Source of the DNA: Chloroflexota bacterium
GTDB taxonomy: Bacteria; Chloroflexota; Anaerolineae; B4-G1; DUEL01
Assembly (NCBI GenBank): GCA_014874475.1
Contig: JADBJJ010000026.1
Coordinates: forward strand, 124,001 to 188,000
DNA: 64,000 nt
Direction: 5' to 3'
Shown: positions 15,908-23,609 of the stretch, one piece after another
How the letters are laid out: each line of letters starts with the position of its first letter
How positions within the stretch are numbered: the stretch's first letter is position 1
The notes under the pieces: generated by a model
Seen by the model: only the letters and a program-made list of their open reading frames with translations
Database searches by the model: none
Told to the model about the DNA's origin: nothing
Program-made: the position numbers and the translations under genes

Positions 15908-15948
15908 TAAGGGAGGAGCAACATTCAGGCCTTGTCCGGTCGCGCACT

Positions 15949-15977
15949 TTGCGTTTTGCCTGCGGTCGTGCTATAAC
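15949..15977 (+). promoter_or_regulatory. Promoter at the left end of the methylase island
   Basis: TTGCGT and TATAAC are separated by 17 bases and lie just upstream of the hsdM remnant. It is the only clear promoter seen before the four-gene methylase-DUF3800-NurA-HerA set. Confidence 0.55.
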
Positions 15978-15979
15978 GT

Positions 15980-16198
15980 TTGTGGGCAAGGGTTATATCG
16001 TCTGGGGTTTGCCTGGGGCTGCTCTGGCAAATGGTCAATGCACTGCGCGGTAGGATGGACGCTGCCGAGTACAAACAGGTCGTCCTCGGCCTCATCTTGC
16101 TGAAAACATCTTCTGGGCGCCGCCCGAAGCGCGCTGGGCGCATCTTAGAGCACACACGAACAAGGCTCACCGAAGGGAAGCCATACCTGGCTCGCTGA
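15980..16198 (+). pseudogene. Fragment of type I restriction methylase HsdM (N-terminus)
   Basis: The 72-residue reading frame contains [20 protein letters not shown] and VVLGLILLK, which match the start of HsdM proteins (LWxxADxLRGxMDAAEYKxVVLGLIFLK). After this point the similarity stops and a short unrelated tail leads to a stop codon. The methyltransferase domain is missing altogether. This is a deleted hsdM gene whose promoter region may have been kept. It sits directly before another methylase gene, consistent with replacement or recombination at a restriction locus. Confidence 0.75.
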
Positions 16199-16308
16199 TA
16201 TTGGATAGTCTGTTTGGAACTGGGCATATGCCCCCAGGGCGTGCGTCCAGCCTTTGCGCCATAAATACGTGCAGCCGTTCAAGCGAGCGCTGTCTGTTGG
16301 AGACCTAC

Positions 16309-19300
16309 ATGAGGCCTGAAGATAGAGAGCGTATCATTGCCACGTGGAGTCAAAATCTCTGTGAAAGACTCCCCCAAATTCTCTCTTCTCACCCCACCGA
16401 GGCGGACTTTCGTCGGGCGGTGGACCCCCTCCTGGACAAGTTCTGCGCCGAGATGGGCTTGAACCCCCTGACTCACGCAGAATACACCCTCGCCACCGGC
16501 CGCGCCGATGCGGTCTTTAACCGGCTGGTCATTGAGTACGAGCGCCCCGGTGTGCTCAAAAAGACTCCCGACGCTGCCACACGACATGCCGCTCAGCAGG
16601 TGAGGGATTACATTGCCGGCCTGGCCCAAAAAGAGCATCGCGAGATGAGGCACCTGGCGGGGGTGGCCTTTGATGGATACTTCCTGATCTTTGTGCGCTA
16701 TATAGACGGCAAATGGGTGGAAGAGCCACCCGTTGAGGTCAACCGACACTCGCTAGAAAAGTTCCTCACCTGGCTCGCTGGGTTGGCCTCCGGCATTGCG
16801 CTCACCTCGGAAAACCTCAACCGCGATTTTTCCATTGAGCAGTTGCGCACTCAGAACATCCTGCGCGGACTGTTCCGCGCCCTCGGCCCGGCGCTGGCTG
16901 CTCCCGATGGCCTAGTCGCTAAGCTCTTTCAGCAGTGGCGGCTGTTCTTCAGTGAGGCGATCGACTACTCCGAAGCCTTCGGCGGGCGCAAACTGGAGCC
17001 GCTGAAAAAGTGGGTGCGCAAGGCCGGCATTGAGGTCCGAACCGCCGAGGAGGCGGAGCGGTTTTTCTTCGTCCTGCACACCTACTTCGCTCTGCTGGTC
17101 AAACTTCTGGCCTGGCTGGCCCTCTCGCGGCACCTGGGCGTCCGATTGGGCGTGCCATCCTTTGCCAACCTGGCCACCACGGACAGCGAAACCCTACGTC
17201 GCCGCCTTGCGGAGATGGAATCAGGCGGCATCTTTCGCGCCTACGGCCTCCTCAACTTGCTGGAAGGCGACTTTTTCTCCTGGTACCTATCCACCTGGAA
17301 CGACGAGATTGAAACCGCGCTGAGGGAAATCCTCAAGCGTCTGGATGAATACGACCCGACCACGCTGACGCTGCTCCCCGAAGAGACGCGGGATCTCTTC
17401 AAGAAACTCTACCACTACCTCTTGCCCCGCGAAATCCGCCACAACCTGGGCGAGTACTACACCCCCGACTGGCTCGCCCAGCGGCTGCTCAACCAGATAG
17501 ACCAGCCGTTTTTTACTGGACAACCCCCACGGGACAAGGTCCTCAACAAGCGCTTCCTGGACCCTGCCTGCGGCTCGGGCACCTTCCTGGTGCTGATTCT
17601 GGCCCGTATGCTGGAACTGGGCCGAACCCTCTTCATTCCGGAATGCGAACTGCTACAGAGCCTGCTGCACAACGTGGTGGGCTTTGACCTGAACCCGCTG
17701 GCTGTGCTCACCGCGCGAGTGAACTACTTGCTGGCGATTGCCGACCTGCTGGAGCACCGCTCCGGCGAGATTACCATCCCCATCTACCTGGCCGATTCGG
17801 TGCGCACGCCGGCCGTAGGGAAAGACCTGTTTTCTCACGGCGCCTACGAATTCCCCACCGCCGTCGGCAAATTCCTGGTGCCGGCAGTTCTTTGCACCCG
17901 CGAACGATTCGACCGCTTCACCGCAATTCTGGAGGAAAGTGTGGGAAGCGATGTCGCGTGGGACAGTTTTCGCAAACGCCTGGAGGCCGAATTGCGGTTG
18001 ACGCCGCCCGAATGGGAGGAGCGCGCGGTTGGGCACTTGCAAACCCTTTATGAGATGATGCAAGACCTGCACCGCCGCGGCCTGAACGGGCTTTGGGCGC
18101 GCCTATTGCGCAATAACTTCGCCCCCCTCACCGTCGGGCAGTTCGACTACATCGTGGGCAATCCCCCGTGGGTCAACTGGGAACACCTGCCCGACGAGTA
18201 CCGCAAATCGATCGTGGATATCTGGAATGAGATGAACCTTGGCGCTACCGTCCATCTGGGCAAAAAGTGGGATATCTCGTACCTGATGACCCAAGTAAGT
18301 GCCCATCACCTGCTGAAGAAGAATGGCAAGCTGGGCTTCGTCATCACACAGTCGGTGTTTAAAACCAACCTTGGCGCCAGGGGGTTTCGTCGGTTTCAGC
18401 TTCCGGACGGTACTCCCCTTCGCGTGTTGGGGGTGGACGATATGGTGAGCCTCAACCCGTTTGAGGGCGCCTCCAACCGCACGGCGGTGATGGTGCTGCA
18501 AAAGGGCCAGCCCACGCAATACCCCGTGCCTTACACCGTATGGCGCAAAGAAAAGGGCGCGCGCTTTACCTATGAGAGCACGCTGGACGAAGTGGTGGAC
18601 GCAACCCAGCGTCTCCACTTTGTGGCCGAGCCGGTGGACCCTAATGACCCCATCTCGCCGTGGCTCACCGCGCGGCCAAAGGCCCTCCGAGCCGTGCGCA
18701 AAGTGCTGGGCAAGTCCGACTACAAGGCCCACGAGGGTGTCAACACCGGCGGCGCCAACGCGGTCTACTGGGTGGAGGTGGTGTACAGACGGCCCGATGG
18801 CTTGATGGTGGTGCGCAACCTGACCGAAGGGGCGAAGGTCAAGGTGGACGAAGTGACCGAGCCGCTTGAGCCCGACCTGCTCTATCCGCTGCTGCGCGGG
18901 CGGGATGTGCGGCGGTGGCGGGCGGAGCCATCCGCTTTCATTATCATGACTTACCCGGAGGCTGGGGAGATTGATCTCGAGGAGATGCAGAAGCGTTTCC
19001 CACGCACCTACGTCTACTTCAAGCGCTTTGAGGCCGTGCTCAAACAGCGCGCGCACTATCGCCACTATTTTGGACCATCGGGCAAACCTTTCTTTACGAT
19101 AATGCAGATGCCTGGCTCTTTCGCGCCGTGGAAGGTGGTGTGGAGAGAAGTATCGCATACTCTCGATGCAGCCGTCGTTTCGCCCCATGATGACAGACCT
19201 ACGGTTGCAAGCCATACTCTGGTTACGGTGGGATGTTCAGACAAGCAAGAGGCTCATTATTTGTGTGGTGTCCTGAACAGTTCAATGGCTCGGTTAGCCG

Positions 19301-19581
19301 TCCAGTCCTATATTGTTCTACATCCTGACCCTCACATCCTTGAGAACATCCGCATCCCCCGCTACGACCCCGCTAACCCCGTCCACCGCCGGCTGGCGGA
19401 GTTAGCGGAGCGGGCGCACTGGGCAGTGGCGTGCGGCGAGGAGAAGGCGCTTGCCGCGATTGAGGCTGAAATCGACGAAGAGGCTGCGCAGGTGTGGGGC
19501 CTGAGCAAGGCCGAACTGCGGGAGATTCAGCGCAGTCTGCGCGAGTTGGAGGGGGAGATTCCCACTTCCGCAGAAGAATAG
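16309..19581 (+). CDS. Large N6-adenine DNA methyltransferase with N-terminal nuclease-like domain (type IIG-like)
   Basis: This 1090-residue protein looks like a single-chain restriction-modification enzyme. Near residues 64-78 GRADAVFNRLVIEYERPG resembles the D...(D/E)xK core of PD-(D/E)XK nucleases, but the last position reads Glu (EYE) rather than Lys. A helical region leads to the methylase with motif I DPACGSGTF (about 418) and motif IV NPPW (about 618), the class of N6-adenine methyltransferases. The last 350 residues are probably the target-recognition part (RGRDVRRWR...). ATG at 16309 is chosen because the upstream in-frame extension is not conserved in character; its ribosome site is weak. 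It begins a run of four same-strand genes and could be a type IIG enzyme or a BREX/DISARM-like methylase. Confidence 0.85.
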   Translation: MRPEDRERIIATWSQNLCERLPQILSSHPTEADFRRAVDPLLDKFCAEMGLNPLTHAEYTLATGRADAVFNRLVIEYERPGVLKKTPDAATRHAAQQVRDYIAGLAQKEHREMRHLAGVAFDGYFLIFVRYIDGKWVEEPPVEVNRHSLEKFLTWLAGLASGIALTSENLNRDFSIEQLRTQNILRGLFRALGPALAAPDGLVAKLFQQWRLFFSEAIDYSEAFGGRKLEPLKKWVRKAGIEVRTAEEAERFFFVLHTYFALLVKLLAWLALSRHLGVRLGVPSFANLATTDSETLRRRLAEMESGGIFRAYGLLNLLEGDFFSWYLSTWNDEIETALREILKRLDEYDPTTLTLLPEETRDLFKKLYHYLLPREIRHNLGEYYTPDWLAQRLLNQIDQPFFTGQPPRDKVLNKRFLDPACGSGTFLVLILARMLELGRTLFIPECELLQSLLHNVVGFDLNPLAVLTARVNYLLAIADLLEHRSGEITIPIYLADSVRTPAVGKDLFSHGAYEFPTAVGKFLVPAVLCTRERFDRFTAILEESVGSDVAWDSFRKRLEAELRLTPPEWEERAVGHLQTLYEMMQDLHRRGLNGLWARLLRNNFAPLTVGQFDYIVGNPPWVNWEHLPDEYRKSIVDIWNEMNLGATVHLGKKWDISYLMTQVSAHHLLKKNGKLGFVITQSVFKTNLGARGFRRFQLPDGTPLRVLGVDDMVSLNPFEGASNRTAVMVLQKGQPTQYPVPYTVWRKEKGARFTYESTLDEVVDATQRLHFVAEPVDPNDPISPWLTARPKALRAVRKVLGKSDYKAHEGVNTGGANAVYWVEVVYRRPDGLMVVRNLTEGAKVKVDEVTEPLEPDLLYPLLRGRDVRRWRAEPSAFIIMTYPEAGEIDLEEMQKRFPRTYVYFKRFEAVLKQRAHYRHYFGPSGKPFFTIMQMPGSFAPWKVVWREVSHTLDAAVVSPHDDRPTVASHTLVTVGCSDKQEAHYLCGVLNSSMARLAVQSYIVLHPDPHILENIRIPRYDPANPVHRRLAELAERAHWAVACGEEKALAAIEAEIDEEAAQVWGLSKAELREIQRSLRELEGEIPTSAEE

Positions 19582-19607
19582 TGTCCCATTTCTGAGACTC
19601 GCCCAAA

Positions 19608-20507
19608 ATGACCACCGTGACTGAATACGACCTGTGGGATCAACCAGTGCATCGTGAAGAAGAGTGGTGCGTCTTTCACGATGAGAGCATTCCCAATAAG
19701 AGGTGGCTGCTCATCGGGTTGCTTTTTGTCCGTGAGAAAGATGTAGAAGAGGCCAAAAGGGTTTTGAGGCAAGCACGGCAAAACGAGAATTACGAAGGCG
19801 AGATCCACTTCTCAGCGCTTCCCAAGTCCTTTGGAGGTCAGTATGGAGCCAAGGCAAGGGTAGCTCGCTCCTGGCTGGAAGCCTACCAAGACCACTTGTG
19901 CGAGCGAGTGTTTTTCTCCTGTCTGGCGGTGGATCGGCACAGCCCAAAGTACAAATCTGAACATTTTCCGAAAGACTTCCACGCCTATAACCGGTTTACA
20001 GCGATGGCTCTAAAGGCGGGCATTGCGTGGCATCTGGTCCCACGGAACTTGAATTGCGTGGTTATTCACTTCGTTTCGGACAAGAAAGACCGCCAGACTC
20101 GGCCCGATGAAGGGTGGCAGGACAACTTTGAACAGTACCTGCCGTATCGGGCTGGACGGGACGTGTTTTCGGCCCAAGTAGAAGGCAGGAACTATCCTTT
20201 GGTGAAAAAGTTCCGTGTCGAACTTCGCGATTCCAAGTCTGAGGACCTGCTCCAATTGACTGACTTACTCCTTGGCGCTATGCAGGAAGCCCTTGTCAGT
20301 GGTTCTTCCCGGGCCACGAAGCAAGAGTTGGGAAAAATGGTGCTTCGGTGGTGTGAGGACATAAGGAAGAAGCCGCGTGAACAGCAATATGCTTTGCATC
20401 GCAAATTCAATGTTTGGGCTTTTCCGGACGAGCAAGGAAGGCCATATAATAATGTGCGATTTGCGTTAGACGCAAACCCTAACCAGCTAAGGCTGTTCGA
20501 GGCATAA
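19608..20507 (+). CDS. DUF3800 family protein
   Basis: This 299-residue protein has the DUF3800 pattern: an early acidic strand motif (VFHDES), an EIHFSAL segment, and a late DLLQLTDLLLGA helix. These acidic residues are arranged as in RNase H-like folds, so a nuclease role is suspected but not shown. Members are frequent in defence islands and near mobile elements. The start lacks a clear ribosome site and lies 26 bases after the methylase gene. The base composition is noticeably more A+T-rich than the housekeeping genes, suggesting transfer. The stop codon abuts the start of the NurA-like gene. Confidence 0.75.
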   Translation: MTTVTEYDLWDQPVHREEEWCVFHDESIPNKRWLLIGLLFVREKDVEEAKRVLRQARQNENYEGEIHFSALPKSFGGQYGAKARVARSWLEAYQDHLCERVFFSCLAVDRHSPKYKSEHFPKDFHAYNRFTAMALKAGIAWHLVPRNLNCVVIHFVSDKKDRQTRPDEGWQDNFEQYLPYRAGRDVFSAQVEGRNYPLVKKFRVELRDSKSEDLLQLTDLLLGAMQEALVSGSSRATKQELGKMVLRWCEDIRKKPREQQYALHRKFNVWAFPDEQGRPYNNVRFALDANPNQLRLFEA

Positions 20508-21635
20508 ATGATGATGGTATTAAGCGGAGTACGCGATGTTCTAAAGATGCTCGGGCGGGAAGTTGAGATTCTACCTGCCGTCGGCGGCGCGATCGAAGAC
20601 CTCGAGCGCCCCGACTTTGAAGAGCGCGAGGATCAGGCGCTGAACGAAGACGAAAAAGTCTTTGAGACGATCTTTGAGCGCGATCCTGCAGGCGTGCGCC
20701 TGTACCGCCATGTACCGCCCCTGGACCGTACCGAACAGCACCTCTTTCGGTATTTCCTGGACGGCTCGTTCCGTTCCTACTTCCTTGGAACGGCGTTGGA
20801 GCACGAACGCGAATCCCCGGTGCACTTTGCCCAAATCGGTGCCTGTGTGTTGCGGCGCGAAGAGGACGGCACAGTGCGGCGCGAGGCGCTGCGTGTAGAC
20901 CACCTCCTGCTGGCCGGAAAGCAAAGGCTATCCGAGCAGGTATGGCAACAGCTCAGCGCTTTGAGTGCCCAGGCAGGCATCCGATTGGTTGACCTGACGG
21001 AGCGGGATATTGTCAGCGGCATCCTATCGGACTTTGACTTGCGCAACAAGGCTGCCGGCAAGGTGCGCTATGAGATGCGCACCCTGGAGGCGGAAGTGAT
21101 CCAGACCATCTTGCCCCACCTGACGGCCGAGCGATGGTTGATCGCGGATGGTTCGCTTATGTTTGATCCGATGCTCAAGCAGGTAGGCAGCGAAGGTGAA
21201 ATCAAACCGGTCATTGGCGTGGCAAAGAACTTTCGCAAAGACCCGCAGTTTGTTTTCGGCCGAGGCCCACGTGCCGAGCGCCGCTCTATCTACAAATTAC
21301 TGGCCGACTTGCAGGCCGAGCATCGCACCGCCGCCTTTAGCGCGCAGGAGGGCAAAGTGGTGTTCTGGTATGTCCGCCTGCGTGAGCAGCGCCATCTGGA
21401 CTACCCCCTAATGGGCGTGGTCAAAGTGGAACTGGCGAACCCGACTCAGGAAGCCGTCCCTTCGGAATTGGTAGACCGGATTTCGCGGGCACTGGTGGCG
21501 GAGCGTCAGGTCACCCCCCACGGCCAGGACCGTCGCTGGCACGCTCACCTGTACCCCATCTTCCTCGCCGAGCGCGCAGTGAAGGAGAGCCTGGTCTCGC
21601 GTGAGGTGGTTCAACAGTACCTAAAATGGAGGTGA
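20508..21635 (+). CDS. NurA-domain nuclease
   Basis: The product (375 residues) fits the NurA family, toroidal 5'-3' nucleases that work with the HerA translocase to resect DNA ends in archaea and some bacteria. Visible family features are FLDGSFRS (about 84), LIADGSL (about 205), a conserved Lys in IGVAKNFRKD, WYVRL near 285 and the C-terminal HLYPIFLAERAVKE helix. It begins immediately after the DUF3800 stop codon and ends in front of the HerA-like gene, whose ribosome site lies within its last codons. Such tight pairing with HerA supports the assignment. Confidence 0.8.
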   Translation: MMMVLSGVRDVLKMLGREVEILPAVGGAIEDLERPDFEEREDQALNEDEKVFETIFERDPAGVRLYRHVPPLDRTEQHLFRYFLDGSFRSYFLGTALEHERESPVHFAQIGACVLRREEDGTVRREALRVDHLLLAGKQRLSEQVWQQLSALSAQAGIRLVDLTERDIVSGILSDFDLRNKAAGKVRYEMRTLEAEVIQTILPHLTAERWLIADGSLMFDPMLKQVGSEGEIKPVIGVAKNFRKDPQFVFGRGPRAERRSIYKLLADLQAEHRTAAFSAQEGKVVFWYVRLREQRHLDYPLMGVVKVELANPTQEAVPSELVDRISRALVAERQVTPHGQDRRWHAHLYPIFLAERAVKESLVSREVVQQYLKWR

Positions 21636-21640
21636 AGAGT

Positions 21641-23317
21641 ATGAACGCTGAACGCCCTATCATCGGACTTTCGTCCGCAACCGCTAACCAGCCCAATACA
21701 TCCGATGAATTCTCCTTCTGGCTTGCGCCCGAGGTCATTGTCAACCCATTTGACATTGTGGAGGTAGAGCAGGTCGCTCCTGAGGGCACGAGCCGAACCT
21801 TCGGTATCGTCACAACTCTTGAGCACAGTACCGATGCGCCGACCCATCTTTCCAACTTCATCTCCAACGACTTTGGTCAGGTGAGCGGTGAGGCCAACAC
21901 GGTACGCCAGGGGACGACCGTCGCACACGTGGCCGTGCTTTCCAATGATCAAGACGTCTACATGCCGGTGATGAATGACCGCCCGGTGCGCTTTGCCGAC
22001 GAAGCGGGCATCCACACGGCGTTGGGCATTGACCAGGTGCCGGAGCGGTATCGCGTGCCTGCTGGCTTGATTGAGATGACCGATGGAACCCGCGCCGTCG
22101 TCTACTTGGATAGCCGCTACATTCTGGGACCTGAGGGCGCGCACGTCAACATCACCGGCATTTCGGGCCTGGCGACCAAGACTTCCTACGCGATTTTCCT
22201 CATCCAGTCCATCCTGCAAAAGGTGGAAAATCGCGACCGGATCGGCGTCATCATCCTGAACGTGAAGCATGGCGACTTGCTCACGATTGACCAACCGCCG
22301 CGGGGAGGTTTGCCTCCGGAACAGCACGACCTGTGGCGCGCGCTCGGTCTTACGCCCCAGCCGTTCAGCAACGTGCGCTACCTGCTGCCCTATGGCAAAG
22401 ACACCCTGACTACCGGGCGGCCAAACAGTTTCCGGATTCCGGAGCGCAATTGGTTCCTCTACGCCTACTCGCTCAAGGACACGTATGACAAGTTGGATTT
22501 GCTCCTTTCCAACATCCCCGATCCGTGGGATACCGTCGGCGCGCTGATCGGCGAAATCCAACAGGGGCTATCAGATCCGAAGACCGGAAAGTGGGGCCAG
22601 ACGGGCAAATGGAAGAGCGTTACCGACTGGAACAGCCTGCTGAATGGCGAGCCGTTGGTCAAAGAGGGGCAGGCGCAAGCGGTGGGCGATGTACGCGCGG
22701 TATCCGTGGGCCGCTTCCGGCGGCTTCTGCGGCGTATCGTCCAAACCAGACAAAGCGGTGTCTTCGTCAGCCAGCGCCCAAGAAACGTCAAAAACCTGAG
22801 CGAGGAAATCGCCAAGATTCGCGGCGGCGAAACGATTGTCGTGGACATCGCACGCCTGACGGATGACGAGCAAACGCTCGTCTTCGGAGACATCCTGCGC
22901 ACCATCTACGCCCTCTACGCCGAAGAGGGAAGCGAACGAGAGGACTTGCCGGAGAAGGTCATCATCTTTGTGGACGAACTGAACAAGTATGCGCCTGCCC
23001 GCGAAAAGGAATCGCCCATCATCGAACAGGTCCTGGATATCGCCGAACGCGGGCGTTCGCTGGGTGTGGTGCTCCTGGGCGCGGAGCAGTTTATGAGCGC
23101 GGTGCACGAGCGGGTTGTGGGCAACGGCTCGACGACCGTCATCGGTCGGAGCGGTTCGGCCGAACTTTCGTCGTCCGCGTACCGCTTTCTCGATCCAGCG
23201 GTCAAAGCAAACATCTCGCGCTTGCAGAAAGGCGAGTTGGTCATCAGCCATGCGACGTTTCGGCAGCCCGTGAAAATCCGCTTTCCCAAGCCAGCATATC
23301 TGCAAGAAGGTGCTTGA
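21641..23317 (+). CDS. HerA-like hexameric DNA translocase ATPase
   Basis: This 558-residue protein resembles the HerA/FtsK superfamily. The N-terminal 130 residues suit a HAS-barrel (FDIVEVEQV...GIVTTLEH). The P-loop is unusual: GISGLATKTSYA replaces the usual GxTGSGKS, a form I recall from a distinct HerA-like clade. Walker B is IIFVDELNKYAP. A late GRSGSAELSSSAYRFL segment may carry the sensor/arginine finger. ATG at 21641 is preferred because GGAGG lies 8 bases before it; the 5-base spacing from nurA implies translational coupling. It would pump DNA to the NurA ring. Confidence 0.82.
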   Translation: MNAERPIIGLSSATANQPNTSDEFSFWLAPEVIVNPFDIVEVEQVAPEGTSRTFGIVTTLEHSTDAPTHLSNFISNDFGQVSGEANTVRQGTTVAHVAVLSNDQDVYMPVMNDRPVRFADEAGIHTALGIDQVPERYRVPAGLIEMTDGTRAVVYLDSRYILGPEGAHVNITGISGLATKTSYAIFLIQSILQKVENRDRIGVIILNVKHGDLLTIDQPPRGGLPPEQHDLWRALGLTPQPFSNVRYLLPYGKDTLTTGRPNSFRIPERNWFLYAYSLKDTYDKLDLLLSNIPDPWDTVGALIGEIQQGLSDPKTGKWGQTGKWKSVTDWNSLLNGEPLVKEGQAQAVGDVRAVSVGRFRRLLRRIVQTRQSGVFVSQRPRNVKNLSEEIAKIRGGETIVVDIARLTDDEQTLVFGDILRTIYALYAEEGSEREDLPEKVIIFVDELNKYAPAREKESPIIEQVLDIAERGRSLGVVLLGAEQFMSAVHERVVGNGSTTVIGRSGSAELSSSAYRFLDPAVKANISRLQKGELVISHATFRQPVKIRFPKPAYLQEGA

Positions 23318-23609
23318 GGAGAGTTCTGGCAAGCCCGTGATGTTTCGTGCTAGGGCGGGCGTGTTCTTTCCAAGCAGTGGAGGCAGGGCGTGAGGGCGGG
23401 GGCGAACCACGCGCTCCAGCCCGGCGGCAAGCCAGGCGACTGGCGCTGCTCCGCGTCAAGTCAAATGATAATGTTACCGGAGCGAGATCGCGCCAGTTTG
23501 ACCGCTGCGCTCTATTGGGCTATAATCAAAGTCCGGGCATGTGTCTCGGTACAGGCCCGGGGGAACGAATCAGGTGGGCATAACCTGCCCCCTCTGGACC
23601 TGAGGAGAT
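23318..23609 (+). other. Intergenic region and sortase leader
   Basis: No gene is supported in these 292 bases. The left half is GC-rich with no clear structure. The right half holds the sortase promoter and an approximately 80-base leader with two possible hairpins, CCGGGC...GCCCGG near 23535-23562 and CAGGTGGGCATAACCTG near 23572. Confidence 0.5.
23498..23526 (+). promoter_or_regulatory. Promoter for the sortase-holA gene group
   Basis: TTGACC and a perfect TATAAT are separated by 17 bases, about 84 bases before the sortase start codon. Confidence 0.8.

Follow-up and report, generated by a model that had tools for sequence, protein, structure and literature searches.

A tdtA-type cassette in a Chloroflexota genome couples a predicted type IIG restriction-modification enzyme to NurA and HerA

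In a 64,000-nucleotide stretch of Chloroflexota DNA (the window), a gene for a type IIG restriction-modification (RM) enzyme stands in one recently inserted block with genes for a NurA nuclease and a HerA ATPase. The conserved unit is this RM-NurA-HerA triad, not the four genes found together in the window. Overall, we are inclined to read the block as a mobile tdtA-type cassette, built from a TspDTI-subfamily IIG enzyme and HerA-NurA and joined late by a DUF3800 gene, that would destroy unmodified incoming DNA.

Genomic context

The four genes are intact open reading frames on one strand (Table 1), and their gaps are 26, 0 and 5 bases, as the original prediction had it, given that HerA most likely starts at the ATG at 21641, which is preceded by GGAGGT. 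Only in the window genome are all four genes packed this closely. In two genomes of the same genus (G303, locus L110; G304, locus L109) the sortase gene follows recF directly, with ~100 bp between them, and positions 15908-23601 of the window are absent from both. The window therefore holds an insert of ~7.6 kb, comprising the N-terminal remnant of hsdM and the four genes, and the block was inserted recently into an empty chromosomal site. The restriction-gene remnant noticed earlier beside the set is real, and belongs to a type I methyltransferase. The lower GC content that had been claimed for the set is evident against recF (0.666) and slight against the sortase side (0.636); genes of the block lie at 0.59-0.60, and the DUF3800 gene, at 0.514, marks the block minimum. 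No integrase was found within the insert and no end repeats or att repeats at its ends; that the window holds an ICE bounded by att repeats was accordingly rejected. Nor does an N4/N6 methylase lie downstream of HerA here, the sortase gene being the next gene.

Table 1. Features of the inserted block, in window coordinates.
Feature	Position	Strand	Basis
Inserted block between recF and the sortase gene	15930..23494		Ends placed from the alignment, to within tens of bases
hsdM N-terminus remnant (type I restriction methylase)	16001..16195	+	PADLOC MTase_I, E=7e-8, profile positions 12-42/932
Predicted type IIG restriction endonuclease-methyltransferase, TspDTI subfamily	16309..19581	+	PADLOC and motifs
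DUF3800 protein, optional accessory gene	19608..20507	+	Pfam PF12686, 9e-7
NurA-family nuclease	20508..21635	+	Profile match, AlphaFold2 fold, acidic motifs
HerA/TdtA-type hexameric ATPase	21641..23317 (ORF opens 21626)	+	Profile match, P-loop, Walker B

Gene identities

The first gene encodes a product of 1090 aa with full-length PADLOC matches to REase_II (1647 bits) and REase_MTase_IIG (1374 bits), an intact nuclease motif, D67-E76-Y-E78 (D-EXE), and intact methyltransferase motifs, DPACGSG at 418 and NPPW at 618. By these marks it is a complete type IIG RM enzyme of the TspDTI/Tth111II/TsoI subfamily; this corrects the earlier description, a large nuclease-like and N6-adenine methylase protein.

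For the third gene Pfam gave no match, and the assignment to NurA comes from a profile match to Deinococcus radiodurans NurA (7f6d_H, 6e-6), from an AlphaFold2 model (pLDDT 88.5) whose best folds are 7f6d_G and 1zup, both solved bacterial NurA structures, and from the acidic motifs FLDGS and ADGS kept in its 375 aa product. The profile of the fourth gene matches D. radiodurans HerA at 2e-115. Both assignments of the original prediction stand and, as judged from sequence and model, this nuclease and ATPase are NurA and HerA of the bacterial, Deinococcus type. The HerA Walker B motif reads FVDELNK and the P-loop GISGLATKTS; the unusual P-loop was ruled out as a novelty, since D. radiodurans HerA shares it (GISGVATKTS). 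The window HerA is 88% identical over its full length to the cassette copy of Thermus scotoductus DSM 8553, gives partial matches of 36-43% to the second HerA of that organism, HepA, and falls in a separate clade from HepA in the tree. By sequence it is nearer TdtA than the housekeeping HepA, T. scotoductus serving here as a proxy for the TdtA of T. thermophilus HB27. A NurA-HerA pair also occurs in a tailed phage, Marinitoga camini virus 1 (L150), where a NurA-like exonuclease and HerA are annotated in a 13.6 kb stretch with no annotated restriction gene.

Conservation across genomes

A HerA scan with one genome per species kept 79 loci, which a tree resolves into two clades. Clade A, with HerA 48-90% identical to that of the window, contains the window cassette; counts for this clade were made by hand, include the window and the IMG/VR locus L103, and exclude loci cut off at contig ends. 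An RM gene accompanies NurA-HerA in 37 of the 43 informative clade A loci, distributed over many phyla. Four of the other six keep a separate type II methyltransferase, while two (L038 and L068) have neither, so that a DNA methyltransferase gene is adjacent in 41 of 43. The usual order is RM-NurA-HerA, with NurA-HerA-RM in L039, L046, L051, L060 and L061, and an N4/N6-type methyltransferase lies downstream of HerA, as in the Thermus element ICETh1, in 19 distinct loci other than the window. Distances among HerA, NurA and RM proteins covary (Mantel rho 0.52-0.77, all p about 0.003), some of which shared ancestry alone would give. That the methylase gene and HerA-NurA belong together, as the original prediction had it, was borne out: the recurrence of the triad, this covariation and the insertion into an empty site mark a conserved unit that moves horizontally, not a chance pairing.

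Between the window genome and Thermus, Bipolaricaulota and others, HerA is 81-89% identical; in the same comparison the RM protein is 58-69% identical, and its C-terminal recognition part 46-65%. A recognition part that has diverged beside a near-constant HerA is what diversifying specificity would be expected to produce. A tyrosine recombinase appears in the examined flanks of only four clade A loci, and defence-type neighbours (GmrSD, AriA-like AAA_21, GajB, BrxC, DpdF) at several, in a tally made without a random-locus control. Coupling of the RM enzyme to HerA-NurA is common, not obligatory: members of the RM family stand without NurA-HerA in G081 (59% identity), G194 and G240, which rules out an obligate coupling and indicates that HerA-NurA is dispensable for restriction as such.

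Two further arrangements were seen. In one Chloroflexota relative (L018, 1832-3577) a single frame, followed by the RM gene, encodes NurA joined to a C-terminal portion of HerA, which may be a gene fusion, the result of a deletion or an artefact of assembly. Four of the clade A loci with NurA-HerA-RM order (L039, 9534-11087; L051, 16014-17612; L060; L061) have a B12-binding radical SAM protein downstream.

The second clade (L072-L098, L100-L102, L104-L107 and L019), with HerA 37-41% identical to the window HerA, comes chiefly from Bacteroidales and Clostridia, with a few members on viral contigs. In place of an RM gene, the partners of its NurA-HerA are a GHKL-type ATPase of ~520 aa and a radical-SAM-like protein of ~640 aa; neither partner had a PADLOC match in the one locus tested (L089, 8794-15095). 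The radical-SAM-like protein is distantly related to the B12-binding protein of clade A (hhalign probability 97).

The possibility that HerA-NurA is an invariant housekeeping pair in this lineage, which the original prediction had itself raised, was checked and is not so. HerA is present in one of 13 genomes of the host family, and relatives of NurA in 11 of 301 genomes of the phylum; this sporadic distribution and the empty site in two same-genus genomes rule out a housekeeping role. We likewise give next to no credence to the idea that HerA-NurA is a DNA-repair end-resection pair standing beside an RM gene by chance. Such a role would suit a pair that adjoins recF and is homologous to the D. 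radiodurans proteins, for which end resection in vitro is known; the pair is, however, lacking in 12 of the 13 family genomes and 290 of the 301 phylum genomes, arrived with the RM gene in a single insertion, and belongs to a clade separate from T. scotoductus HepA, and loss of TdtA in Thermus hardly alters survival of UV or heat.

DUF3800 has a very different standing from the triad. The second gene is indeed a DUF3800 gene, as originally identified, and DUF3800 is described as an RNase H-like fold tied to other defence loci as well (PMC10910872); an AlphaFold2 model of this protein, built from two sequences, reached a pLDDT of 34.7, too low for a fold to be read from it. Yet the expectation that all four families would recur in the same order elsewhere failed. 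DUF3800 is present in 2 of about 43 informative clade A loci, in different positions, the second copy (L031) being 51% identical and downstream of HerA, and in one of 251 phylum genomes, the other 250 being without it; no relatives were matched in viral contigs or plasmids. The slot between RM and NurA is filled elsewhere by other genes, namely an AAA_21 gene, a three-gene AAA set or a transposase-like gene. At L055, L057 and L059 three genes lie between RM and NurA, one of them an AAA ATPase that is weakly BrxD-like. The searches of phylum genomes and genome contigs rule out a four-gene system, and we regard it as very unlikely that DUF3800 serves as the nuclease of such a system for defence, as an integral part of it: its place inside the operon, the copy beside the triad in L031 and its fold would speak for one, and its absence from all other clade A loci, its low GC, the lack of any plasmid or viral match, the changed position in L031 and the other occupants of its slot speak against. 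To judge by sequence, the DUF3800 gene is a late-acquired accessory.

Discussion

A logic of marking self and of cutting and degrading non-self fits the encoded enzymes, and a plausible course of events can be drawn from homologues. The IIG enzyme would methylate its own asymmetric site throughout the host genome, and would cut or nick unmethylated copies at a fixed distance from that site. The breaks would then serve as entry points where HerA hexamers load with NurA, translocate the DNA, and resect it or break it down. The outcome under selection would most likely be that incoming DNA lacking the modification is destroyed, not just cut once in a way that can be repaired, with DUF3800 as an optional and possibly nuclease-like extra. 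Four observations favour the destruction of invading DNA: the diversified recognition part of the RM protein beside a near-constant HerA, the turnover of restriction genes at the site evident in the hsdM remnant, the defence-type neighbours (in that uncontrolled tally), and the rarity of recombinases beside clade A loci. Counting against it, the one homologous operon that has been studied genetically has a phenotype in DNA donation, and loss of TdtA left transformation unchanged, though the DNA in that assay may already have been modified. The RM enzymes of this family that stand alone, without NurA-HerA, also weigh against it.

The main alternative is that the cassette exports DNA. Here the IIG enzyme would nick or cut the genome of its own cell at many sites, HerA (as TdtA) and NurA would pump the DNA to competent neighbours, and the cassette would spread by export and homologous recombination into flanking genes. 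The triad and its order match TTC1877-1879 of the ICETh1 operon in T. thermophilus HB27 (TTC1877, Tth111II, 1106 aa; TTC1878, NurA, 377 aa; TTC1879, TdtA; and a methylase), where deletion of tdtA abolishes transjugation and deletion of nurA or of the IIG gene lowers it 10^3 to 10^5 fold (PMC5365140), so that all three genes have a donation phenotype (PMC5365140, PMC7767461). Moreover, T. scotoductus DSM 8553, the source of the 88% identical HerA, is a named carrier of a tdtA-like cluster (PMC5365140), a bare insertion free of integrase fits spread by natural transformation in a host genome that has ComEC, and the indifference of transformation to TdtA loss is also consistent with export. Against this, the window block has no integrase, att repeats or downstream methyltransferase, and recombinases are missing from the examined flanks of most relatives; the cassette is spread over many phyla, several of them MAG-only, without sign of cell-contact DNA transfer; and no membrane or secretion partner is encoded inside it. 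We lean towards destruction of invading DNA as the preferred reading, and hold export to be possible but doubtful.

The role of bacterial HerA-NurA is unsettled, and Deinococcus cells that have lost it even survive some kinds of damage better. A large clade of bacterial HerA-NurA now gains a specific candidate partner, the DNA methyltransferase encoded beside it in nearly every case, which is usually a complete type IIG enzyme. It is conceivable, and we suggest it only tentatively, that RM-NurA-HerA represents a widespread restriction class in which cuts by the IIG enzyme are handed to HerA-NurA so that, in the majority of hosts, foreign DNA is processively destroyed, DNA donation in Thermus being a derived or side use; we call this class so far unnamed on the strength of open-licence PMC literature, and a name for the wider family may exist. 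The question thus raised is whether the DNA-donation machine of Thermus was repurposed from a restriction system, or the reverse.

Comparison with known systems

The closest known relative is the tdtA operon of ICETh1 (PMC5365140, PMC7767461), which agrees with the window cassette in its three gene families and their order and has proteins of similar size (NurA of 377 aa in Thermus and 375 aa in the window; RM enzymes of 1106 and 1090 aa). The original prediction knew of no named system with this composition, a claim that fails because an operon composed like the triad, Tth111II-NurA-TdtA, had been published (PMC5365140). Unlike ICETh1, the window has an extra DUF3800 gene between RM and NurA, no downstream methylase and no integrase or att repeats, and its cassette is flanked by recF and a sortase gene. 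The window cassette is thus tdtA-type by its operon and not an ICETh1-like element; in T. scotoductus DSM 8553, too, the copy is a bare triad between housekeeping genes with no adjacent integrase.

D. radiodurans HerA-NurA (7f6d) is a more distant member, of the same HerA family, with the GISG-ATKTS P-loop and the same RNase H-like NurA fold; in the part of the published account available to us, no linked RM gene is described, and the purified pair resects DNA ends and gives no protection against DNA damage (PMC9960219).

With the TspDTI subfamily of type IIC/IIG enzymes (TspDTI, Tth111II/TthHB27I and TsoI; PMC3384240) the first gene shares the D-EXE motif at the same spacing, DPACGSG, NPPW, a length of ~1100 aa and a C-terminal recognition region; D-EXE, DPACGSG and NPPW are listed for TspDTI and Tth111II/TthHB27I, and TsoI has PPACGSG (PMC3384240). 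SAM-stimulated cleavage 11/9 nt from the site and m6A methylation mark the subfamily, and would be expected of the window enzyme, which is assigned to it by sequence. The characterised enzymes were studied as lone enzymes, whereas that of the window is encoded with NurA-HerA.

Finally, the HerA/FtsK capture systems (DndFGH and relatives, PMC10853773; BRC, PMC12839542) and the HerA-effector defence pairs have partners that differ from those in the window, NurA being unmentioned in a text search of PMC10853773 and PMC12839542. What they have in common with the cassette is a HerA-type motor joined to restriction-type nucleases, and the capture systems are proposed to intercept invader DNA.
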